Made by a program: the position numbers and the translations under genes. The notes beneath the pieces were generated by a model that was given only the letters and a program-made list of their open reading frames with translations, searched no databases and was not told the origin of the DNA. A stretch of 46,219 nucleotides of DNA from Methanoregula sp. (GTDB lineage: Archaea > Halobacteriota > Methanomicrobia > Methanomicrobiales > Methanospirillaceae), in assembly GCF_028712425.1 (NCBI RefSeq), contig NZ_JAQTQD010000020.1, positions 1-46,219 of the forward strand. Direction: 5' to 3'. Below are positions 41,822 through 45,617 of this stretch, one piece after another. Position 1 is the stretch's first letter. Each line of letters starts with the position of its first letter.

Positions 41822-42910
41822 ATGCCCCCTGTCCGCAACACTTCCGGCCGCCGGCTCCATAAGCAGGAGAGCAACCACAACGGCGACACCCGGTTCGAGG
41901 ACCTTGCCGAACTCCTCCCCCAGATCGTCTTCGAGCTTGACGAGGACCTGAAGTTCACCTTCTTCAACTGGAGCGCCATCGATATCATCGGGCATGCCTA
42001 CGATGAGCAGGCAGAGGGCCGGACCGGCATCTTCGATATCGTCCGCGAATCCGAGCGGGAAAAGATCCGATCCTTTTTTGCCCGCATCCAGCAGGACGTG
42101 ACAAGCGACCACATCGCGTGCAGCATCATTGCCCACGACGGCCGGGAGATCCCGGCCATCATCTACGCCTCGCCCATCATCGGGGAGAAGCGGATCGCGG
42201 GTGTCCACGGGGTCATCGTCGACATCTCGGAACAGGTCCGGCTCGAAAAGGCGCTTGCACTGACGAACCAGAAACTGAACATGATGAACAGCGTGACCCG
42301 TCACGATGTGTTGAACAGCATCACGGGAGTTCTCGGGCTCTGCGATATGCTGGCCGCGACGACAACGGACAGCGATGCAAAGGAACTCGCCTCCGGTATC
42401 CGCGACCAGGTGGTCAGGATCAAGGAGCAGATCCTTTTCACGAAAGATTACCAGAGTGTCGGCGTGAAAGCACCACAATGGCAGGGGCTCATCCAGAACA
42501 TCCGGGATGCAGCATCCGCTGTCGGTCACGAGACAATCCAAATCCGCCTGCCGGAAGCGGATTACGAGATCTATGCGGACCCGCTCTTTGGCCGGGCCTT
42601 CTACAACCTGATCGACAACAGCATCCGGCACGGGGGACCGGTCCGGCACATCTCGGTGGATACAGAGACTGTCCCTGACGGGGGCCTCGTGATCCGGTAC
42701 CGCGATGACGGTTGCGGTATCCCGGCGGGGGAGAAACAGAAGATCTTCGATCAGGGATACGGGAAGAATACCGGTTTCGGGCTGTTTTTTATCCGGGAGG
42801 TGCTGGCTATCACCGGCCTGATTATCCGGGAGACGGGTGAGGTCGGAAAGGGGGTTGTGTTCGAGATCACGGTGCCGAAAGCAGCGTGGAGAGCCGAGCC
42901 GGCTCAGTGA
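41822..42910 (+). CDS. PAS-domain sensor histidine kinase, soluble
   Basis: 362 residues, no membrane segment. PAS domain at about 25-140 (LLPQIVFELDEDLKFTFFNW to VHGVIVDISEQV). The phospho-acceptor His161 lies in NSVTRHDVLNSITGV, the methanogen-type H-box. The ATPase domain has the N-box YNLIDNSIRH (261-270), G1 DDGCGIP (295-301) and G2 KNTGFGLFF (315-323). No response regulator is adjacent. It lies 49 bases after the tagged operon with TATA-like gatttatta about 30 bases before the ATG. A fragment of a second kinase gene lies at 43556. Confidence 0.88.
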   Translation: MPPVRNTSGRRLHKQESNHNGDTRFEDLAELLPQIVFELDEDLKFTFFNWSAIDIIGHAYDEQAEGRTGIFDIVRESEREKIRSFFARIQQDVTSDHIACSIIAHDGREIPAIIYASPIIGEKRIAGVHGVIVDISEQVRLEKALALTNQKLNMMNSVTRHDVLNSITGVLGLCDMLAATTTDSDAKELASGIRDQVVRIKEQILFTKDYQSVGVKAPQWQGLIQNIRDAASAVGHETIQIRLPEADYEIYADPLFGRAFYNLIDNSIRHGGPVRHISVDTETVPDGGLVIRYRDDGCGIPAGEKQKIFDQGYGKNTGFGLFFIREVLAITGLIIRETGEVGKGVVFEITVPKAAWRAEPAQ

Positions 42911-42916
42911 TGTATA

Positions 42917-42941
42917 TGTCACGCGAGGCCTGCGGACCTGC
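42917..42941. repeat. 25-base dispersed repeat, copy 1
   Basis: The 25-base sequence beginning tgtcacgcgaggcct and ending gcggacctgc starts 6 bases after the kinase stop. Identical copies start at 43512 and 45104, all in the same orientation and each near the end of a gene. Confidence 0.75.
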
Positions 42942-43028
42942 AGACATACAGAGAAATAGAGAAATGATGCCCTGCCGATAATCACGACCTCATTCTTTAT
43001 TACATCTCAACGGAAATGATACTCTAAC

Positions 43029-43214
43029 ATGACAATGGTTCATGGTAAGCACGAAACGGAATGGATCACAATTTCCGTAGATGAATATGAGTCCATGAAG
43101 AGGACTATTGATGTTCTTACTGACAAGGATCTTATGGCCCAGATTAAGAGAGGGCAGCAGAAGAATGTCAAATCCCGCGATTTCAATGAAGTCGCAAAGG
43201 AACTCGGTATCTAA
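43029..43214 (+). CDS. Putative antitoxin (Phd/YefM-like)
   Basis: 61 residues (an ATG at 43035 is an alternative start). The N-terminal WITISVDEYESMKRTIDVLTD resembles the beta-alpha start of Phd/YefM-type antitoxins, followed by a helical, basic C-terminus (DFNEVAKELGI) suited to wrap a toxin. It is convergent with and overlaps by 4 bases a RelE-like gene, rather than lying upstream of it on the same strand. AT-rich relative to its neighbours, suggesting acquisition. Confidence 0.7.
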   Translation: MTMVHGKHETEWITISVDEYESMKRTIDVLTDKDLMAQIKRGQQKNVKSRDFNEVAKELGI

Positions 43215-43468
43215 AACTCGTCCTTGTGTTTAATCGCTTCTATATACACAACAGAATTTTTAAAATCGATTGTATAGATAATCCTGAAACTTTTCTCAAA
43301 ATAGAGCTCCCAATATCCATGAAGTGGAGTTCTCAATGGTTTCCCGTGGAGTTCCGGGTTTTCGGATAATTTTTGGATCTTCTTTACAAAATCGCGCTGG
43401 ATGTTCTTGTCGTATTTCTTCAGCCATTCCTCCGCGGGTTCTTTGATGAGGATGGTATATGTGGCCAT
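43211..43468 (-). CDS. RelE/ParE family toxin
   Basis: 85 residues: YTILIKEPAEEWLKKYDKNI, FVKKIQKLSENPELHGKPLR, then the beta hairpin core HGYWELYFEKSFRIIYTIDF and VVYIEAIKHKDEF. This is the RelE fold order; catalytic-type basic residues are present (Lys in the first helices, Arg in SFRIIY). RelE toxins cut mRNA at the ribosome; ParE relatives act on gyrase. A TATA box (ttttatatc on the minus strand) about 28 bases upstream implies its own leaderless promoter. It is encoded tail-to-tail with the antitoxin. Confidence 0.82.
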   Translation of the reverse strand: MATYTILIKEPAEEWLKKYDKNIQRDFVKKIQKLSENPELHGKPLRTPLHGYWELYFEKSFRIIYTIDFKNSVVYIEAIKHKDEF

Positions 43469-43511
43469 TACTTATAATTATCAAATTTCAGATATAAAAC
43501 AGATGAGTATC

Positions 43512-43536
43512 TGTCACGCGAGGCCTGCGGACCTGC
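43512..43536. repeat. 25-base dispersed repeat, copy 2
   Basis: Identical to the copy at 42917 over 25 bases and extended by ccggtatcc in common with the copy at 45104. With copy 1 it flanks the toxin-antitoxin pair in direct orientation and lies directly before a kinase remnant. Confidence 0.75.
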
Positions 43537-43555
43537 CGGTATCCGGGTAAAACGA

Positions 43556-43630
43556 GGCCTCTCCATCCAGGAGACCGGGACGTTCGGGAGCGGGGTCCTG
43601 TTCGAGATCATGGTGCCGGAAGGGGCATAG
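43556..43630 (+). pseudogene. 3' remnant of a histidine kinase gene
   Basis: Translated in frame up to the TAG at 43628-43630 this gives LSIQETGTFGSGVLFEIMVP then EGA, clearly the last strand pair of a kinase ATPase domain: the complete kinase at 41822 ends LIIRETGEVGKGVVFEITVP. No start codon or upstream domain remains. It suggests that a second kinase gene, or a duplicated end of the first, was broken here, possibly with insertion of the toxin-antitoxin segment. Confidence 0.7.
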
Positions 43631-45103: not shown

Positions 45104-45128
45104 TGTCACGCGAGGCCTGCGGACCTGC
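45104..45128. repeat. 25-base dispersed repeat, copy 3
   Basis: Third identical copy of the repeat at 42917 and 43512; it starts 12 bases after the radical SAM stop and shares the extra ccggtatcc with copy 2. Confidence 0.75.
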
Positions 45129-45214: not shown

Positions 45215-45340
45215 TGATAGCAGCTTGGTATGGTTCCCGGGGACTCGCGTACCTCAGTACAGCATACTACGTGTGTCAGCTTAACTGCTGGATTCGGAAT
45301 GAGACCAGGTGTTTCCTAAACAGCTATGGCCGCTATCACC
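45215..45340 (-). rRNA. 5S rRNA, distal copy
   Basis: About 125 bases on the minus strand with the 5S pattern: the conserved GGTCTCATTCCGAA loop region and the TACTGAGGTACGCGAG arm. Terminal helix I is perfect: GTGATAGC (5' end, read on the minus strand from 45339) pairs with GCTATCAC. Compared with the proximal copy one helix pair is exchanged in a compensated way, with further changes in loops. It lies about 150 bases downstream of the other copy. Confidence 0.88.
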
Positions 45341-45490: not shown

Positions 45491-45617
45491 GGTGATTGCA
45501 GCTTGGTATGGTTCCCGGGGACTCGCGTACCTCAGTACAGCATACTACGTGTGTCAGCTTAACTGCTGGGTTCGGAATGAGACCAGGTGTTTCCCGACAG
45601 CTATGGCCGCAATCACC
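45491..45617 (-). rRNA. 5S rRNA, proximal copy
   Basis: 127 bases on the minus strand. The ends form a perfect 9-bp helix I (GGTGATTGC with GCAATCACC), the 5' part reads GGCCATAGCTGTCGGGAAAC, and the conserved core CATTCCGAACCCAGCAGTTA is present. The first 5S gene after tRNA-Cys in the rRNA operon. Confidence 0.92.

Follow-up and report, generated by a model that had tools for sequence, protein, structure and literature searches.

A conserved convergent arrangement of a RelE-fold toxin gene and its putative antitoxin gene in Methanoregula and other archaea

How could an antitoxin stay in excess over its toxin if the two share neither transcription nor translational coupling, and if there is no autoregulation? 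The question is raised by two small genes in a stretch of 46,219 nucleotides of Methanoregula sp. DNA (contig NZ_JAQTQD010000020.1, hereafter the window), part of a genome of 2.67 Mb in 56 contigs. The genes meet tail to tail, a putative antitoxin on the plus strand and a RelE-fold toxin on the minus strand, and they lie within what appears to be a recombination scar. We asked whether the scar accounts for this order, how widely the order is found, and what could favor the antitoxin.

The pair and its surroundings

A first-pass annotation had described the locus as an AT-rich convergent pair with a 4-base overlap, set between identical 25-base repeats and followed by a kinase remnant. Each of these features was confirmed (Table 1). 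The GC content of the pair is 40.5%, versus 57.8% for the window, and over 67 nt the remnant shares 75% identity with the terminal part of the preceding kinase gene. Judged from 100 shuffles, no identical 25-mer is expected by chance. The annotation had overlooked a third identical copy, which lies beyond two minus-strand 5S rRNA genes.

Table 1. Features of the convergent pair and its flanks in the window
Feature	Position	Strand	Basis or remark
Antitoxin gene, 61 aa, Phd/YefM/RelB-tail-like	43029..43214	+	ORF and profile; no DNA-binding part seen
RelE-fold toxin gene, 85 aa	43211..43468	-	Pfam Gp49 and ParE_toxin above cut-off; RelE fold matches
4-nt stop-codon overlap, CTAA	43211..43214		Common to both genes; same YTAR overlap in relatives
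Weak TATA-like box of antitoxin, TTTATTA	42996..43002	+	Position by eye; family box at -30 to -40
TATA-like box before toxin, TTTATATC	43491..43498	-	7 of 8 letters; not conserved among relatives
25-bp direct repeat, copy 1	42917..42941	+	Identical to copies 2 and 3
25-bp direct repeat, copy 2	43512..43536	+	Identical to copy 1
25-bp repeat, copy 3	45104..45128	+	Beside 5S rRNA gene 45215-45337 (-)
End of intact histidine kinase gene (41822-42910), one side of the duplication	42815..42910	+	Comparison with remnant
Kinase-end remnant, other side of the duplication	43556..43630	+	Sequence comparison; joined to DNA colinear with genome G035

When up to 3 mismatches are allowed, the 2.67-Mb genome holds no further copy of the repeat. 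A search permitting 2 mismatches in 18 bases gave matches in 22 of 108 genomes, which we take as mostly chance because a backwards control also matches several. There is one convincing homologous stretch, in genome G037, where it stands beside sequence like the 5S region of the window, and we rejected the idea of a wider repeat family. The 5S genes of the window form a tandem (45215-45337 and 45493-45614, both minus strand), and a tRNA gene lies between them and the large-subunit rRNA gene.

The two proteins

The minus-strand protein matches the Pfam families Gp49 and ParE_toxin above their cut-offs in a profile search, and scores 27.1 bits against RelE_StbE (cut-off 27.9). Its AlphaFold2 model has a pLDDT of 82.6, and the best Foldseek matches of the model are Thermus thermophilus RelE and Mycobacterium tuberculosis RelE2 and RelE1. 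By its profile matches and its predicted BECR/RelE fold, the protein is a member of the RelE/ParE toxin superfamily. Among named genomes, its nearest relatives come from Methanoregulaceae, Methanomicrobiales, and Methanoregula bins. R62 and H81 are invariant in the family alignment and resemble catalytic residues of YoeB-type toxins; cleavage of mRNA on the ribosome would be a putative activity here.

The plus-strand protein matches no Pfam or NCBIfam family above cut-off. Among 28 antitoxin members, 11 match PhdYeFM_antitox weakly (best E 0.0069, the curated cut-off not being reached). A profile built from the alignment of these 28 gives weak matches in the PDB (E 0.05 and above), which comprise unrelated proteins and three antitoxin chains aligned from residue 38 or 45 onward. 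The predicted structure consists of an extended start followed by three helices; Foldseek returned no match for the antitoxin alone, and neither profile nor model revealed a DNA-binding fold or part.

Convergent order among relatives

Relatives were drawn from four sets: 26 loci from named genomes, matches in 26 of 108 family genomes, antitoxin-profile matches in 63 of 392 phylum genomes, and toxin-profile matches in 21 of 232 class genomes. Convergent loci include those of Methanoregula, Methanolinea, Methanoperedens, ANME-2, Argoarchaeum, and an Aenigmatarchaeon. After removal of near-copies, and requiring at least 60 model positions covered in one frame, there are 29 non-redundant family toxins, 25 of which have a convergent antitoxin with an overlap of exactly 4 nt. 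Conservation of both frames rules out a chance ORF or an annotation artefact.

The four exceptions are heterogeneous. One toxin has an internal stop, its last codons still overlapping by 4 (L045), and a second has a frameshifted end (L078); for a third no antitoxin was found (L013). At the fourth (L043, 2498-3874), a stretch of ~930 nt with an ORF of its own lies exactly between an intact toxin gene and an intact antitoxin gene. Since this locus keeps both genes ~930 nt apart, the overlap appears dispensable. Two sister families, II and III, contribute 15 convergent pairs with overlaps from -18 to +42; the locked 4 nt are therefore special to the family of the window (family I).

The first-pass annotation had read the locus as an insertion or recombination scar. 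A scar is supported. As the origin of convergence it is ruled out, the same order being common to distant archaea. Judged from this distribution, convergent order is an old family trait that the scar did not cause, and the pair is not the same-strand two-gene operon of type II.

Gene loss

We tallied 44 distinct loci by the state of their genes. Both are complete in 23, and three loci are cut by contig ends. The toxin is broken beside an intact antitoxin in 12; three loci have both genes impaired, two retain antitoxin remnants alone, and in one a toxin fragment stands without an antitoxin. None of the 44 combines an intact toxin with a broken antitoxin. Given the gene lengths, the 12-to-0 asymmetry has a chance of ~0.0015. 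In metagenome bins, however, a frame may look broken through a sequence error. The antitoxin is a conserved protein partner in the 28-member alignment with one-sided loss across the 44 loci, and from its homology together with this asymmetry we infer that it binds and blocks the toxin.

At one locus (L016/L058 in genome G056; L016 1501-1997) the toxin is split: its first half lies on one strand and its second half is inverted along with the intact antitoxin, the arrangement that a flip of a segment within the pair would produce. The ends of this inversion carry no convincing inverted repeat.

Promoters and unit edges

The annotation had also credited each gene with its own promoter. We scored upstream regions against an 8-letter TATA consensus. 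The antitoxin regions (n = 32) have a mean score of 6.47 out of 8, versus 5.35 (SD = 0.15) in shuffles, and 15 of them reach a score of 7, as do 3 of 32 control segments taken at a greater distance upstream. For the toxin regions (n = 26) the mean is 5.31 versus 5.06 (SD = 0.15), with 5 of 26 reaching 7 against 1 of 26 in the control. Across the family, a conserved TATA-like box is present on the antitoxin side only, as far as these scores tell. The window is atypical, with a score of 5 on the antitoxin side and 7 on the toxin side, which counts against the explanation that we prefer below. The statement that each gene has its own promoter therefore holds only loosely: the window has a box before each gene, and among the relatives the antitoxin side alone is conserved.

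Where close relatives stand at different sites (for example, L035-L036 and L038-L041), their DNA homology starts near the toxin start and reaches ~40-85 nt past the antitoxin start. Whole neighborhoods are common to L040-L044, L046-L052, L034-L037, and L047-L048. The toxin gene lies close behind another same-strand gene in L034, L037, L044, and L048, and at an Aenigmatarchaeota locus (L049) close behind one that we take to encode EF-2. From these edges and positions, the unit would seem to bring along the antitoxin promoter and to borrow transcription for the toxin.

Three of the upstream genes (L034 1701-2504, L037 1739-2494, and L048 1741-2499) are ~250 codons long, lack a Pfam name, end at the toxin start, and have starts that look similar by eye. 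A Pfam search named none of four genes that lie immediately upstream of the toxin at loci other than that of the window. At L049 (280-4410) the pair stands between the presumed EF-2 gene and a gene that we take to encode EF-1A, and the end of the putative EF-2 gene is duplicated beyond the antitoxin.

Flanking duplications

Exact repeats of 17-33 nt, of a different sequence at each locus, stand on both sides of the unit in 7 of 23 loci; no shuffle reached them. With mismatches allowed (E < 1e-6), direct duplications of 37 to 193 nt surround 10 of 33 units, while random placements in the same loci give 1 in 200. Two of the loci, L046 and L052, represent one site, and counting it once leaves 9 of 32 against 1 of 200 (P = 6e-8). 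Flanking duplications are also seen in 4 of 15 loci of families II/III and in 3 of 39 same-strand TA loci. This last figure counts against the preferred explanation; the difference from 9 of 32 has P = 0.03. The test was set up with 34 units and run on 33; L035 was excluded beforehand for its short flank, and the test covers the collection without L012, L013, L016, L018, L042, L043, L059, L097, and L098; start points of broken toxins in it are approximate.

The duplication at L052 reaches from the final part of a tRNA-Arg gene into the beginning of the gene that follows. At both L052 (2216-2464) and L046 (63-139) a tRNA-Arg gene immediately precedes the pair, and its final bases belong to the duplicated flank.

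The unit contains its two genes and no enzyme for movement. No inverted match between flanks (E < 1e-6) was found in the 33 units, and the hallmarks of a classical transposable element (its own transposase or integrase, terminal inverted repeats) are lacking. Carriage by viruses or plasmids was rejected, there being no relatives in viral-contig or plasmid collections.

The duplicated piece in the window is the kinase end. The annotation had looked to an empty site with a single repeat copy for support; this was not found. Instead, genome G035 has the kinase and its downstream genes with neither pair nor repeat, and the remnant continues into sequence colinear with that genome, which makes the kinase end the probable point of entry of the pair. 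The inner 25-bp repeats match the 5S flank; they may date from a previous position of the unit next to a 5S gene. Comparison of these sites suggests that the unit is mobile, and the flanking duplications offer a handle on how small TA units spread without a transposase.

A model for antitoxin dominance, and its alternatives

We think it fairly likely that the pair is a mobile, type II-like archaeal module in which the antitoxin dominates through promoter asymmetry and convergent transcription, and not through operon order. The antitoxin protein would bind and block the RelE-fold toxin. There is no shared operon and no DNA-binding part is seen in the antitoxin, so its excess would depend on a promoter of its own, carried along with the unit. 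The toxin, lacking a conserved promoter, would rely on weak or host transcription, which convergent transcription may dampen further. Units would have inserted at many sites, often with direct duplications of neighboring DNA, and the insertion in the window would have duplicated the kinase end. The separated genes of L043, the lack of an enzyme for movement in the unit, and possible sequence errors behind the broken frames also weigh against this model. A more specific version is quite doubtful: a spreading archaeal TA cassette of ~530-700 bp that inserts with target duplications of ~40-200 bp, carries an antitoxin promoter only, leaves the toxin to be driven by the host, and has an antitoxin transcript doubling as antisense RNA.

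Convergence might instead be a frozen accident, inherited without any regulatory role, with the 4-nt overlap maintained because neither C-terminus can spare its last residue. We regard this as possible, with the balance against it. Both proteins are indeed conserved up to their final residues, no RNA-level constraint is seen (below), and the separated genes of L043 seem to work apart, judging by their intact frames. Against it stand the one-sided promoter box, the varied overlaps of the convergent sister families, and a tree that calls for at least two changes of order, so that the order either arose or was lost more than once.

The link to ordinary operons counts in favor of the preferred model. 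Immediately upstream of more distant toxins in this genus lies an ORF of another family, on the toxin strand. In other archaea, homologous antitoxins and toxins form antitoxin-first operons; a homologous antitoxin on the same strand has HMM support at 13 loci, and in two of the loci that group with convergent family III toxins (L133 and L134) it lies upstream. Family I and III profiles match each other with E 2e-12 over 43 columns for the antitoxins and 8e-17 for the toxins. On a tree of 86 rows, from few columns and by a quick method, the order label needs four changes, and starred branches impose at least two of these. With the exception of the doubtful row L167, whose "same" label reflects only a generic ORF and is not trusted, families I and II form a single group with support 95. 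The tree leaves out L098, L029, and the weaker L026 match; L078 was labeled convergent by hand because its toxin end is frameshifted, and 29 same-strand labels come from a nearby ORF without HMM support.

A hybrid of types I and II, in which the antitoxin transcript continues beyond the stop into the toxin gene and serves as antisense RNA besides coding for the protein antitoxin, strikes us as unlikely. Because the stops overlap, each transcript can end only inside or beyond the partner gene, and a precedent exists in M. tuberculosis, where a tandem relBE locus has an antisense RNA to relE (PMC9325379). However, T-tracts, as possible terminators, lie within the partner gene at no more than a subset of loci (8 of 20 after the antitoxin, 12 of 20 after the toxin). 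Nor is there extra conservation of third bases at the 3′ ends: at codon pairs for the same residue they agree in 36%-57% of cases in nearly all blocks, 3′ ends like elsewhere. This pattern indicates selection on both proteins with no sign of added RNA constraint, and we rejected a sequence-specific RNA constraint at the 3′ ends.

It is improbable that the window pair is an inactive relic of recombination. The pair does sit within a scar beside a kinase remnant, its antitoxin box is weak, and toxins are broken in the 12 relatives counted above; yet both window frames are complete and retain the family's conserved residues. Least probable by far is that the plus-strand protein is no antitoxin and a different one exists elsewhere: the absence of a family assignment or fold match would fit, but the constancy of the partnership, the one-sided loss, and the homology to operon antitoxins all speak against it.

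Relation to known systems

According to TADB 3.0 (PMC10767807), in the sections available, systems of types II-VII typically consist of a tandem gene pair on the same strand, and the pipeline that predicts them includes an operon-structure step. Rules that define and search for type II modules as same-strand operons would overlook a conserved convergent class. In the available passages of Makarova 2009 (PMC2701414) and PMC11980606 the word "convergent" does not occur; related literature, available likewise in part, includes work on DinJ-YafQ (PMC6843646), Thermococcus plasmids (PMC3543421), and PMC3832669. A full-text literature search, with subscription papers mostly outside its reach, found no convergent protein-protein type II pair.

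The closest likeness is to relBE/yefM-yoeB modules of type II (M. tuberculosis RelBE2 and RelBE1, T. thermophilus RelE), with which the toxin shares the RelE fold; the antitoxin profile weakly resembles the later part of RelB and Phd/YefM antitoxins. Those modules, as the passages of PMC10767807 describe them, are same-strand operons, whereas the window genes converge, and no DNA-binding half is seen in the antitoxin. The type IIb locus relBE2-asrelE2 of M. tuberculosis likewise has a RelE-type toxin whose gene is traversed by convergent transcription, but, in the portions available (PMC9325379), relB and relE there form one operon met by a separate converging antisense RNA; here the antitoxin gene itself converges. 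Type I systems such as Fst and BsrG-SR4 have the same convergent promoters and 3′-overlapping layout in the passages of PMC3874152, with an RNA as antitoxin where the present pair has a conserved protein; the layout of our pair, as known from gene order, would allow type I-like antisense. Finally, the excludon, or overlap of convergent genes (PMC7154746), also involves convergent genes whose transcripts can overlap, although it is a general concept, and its available passages describe no toxin-antitoxin pair.
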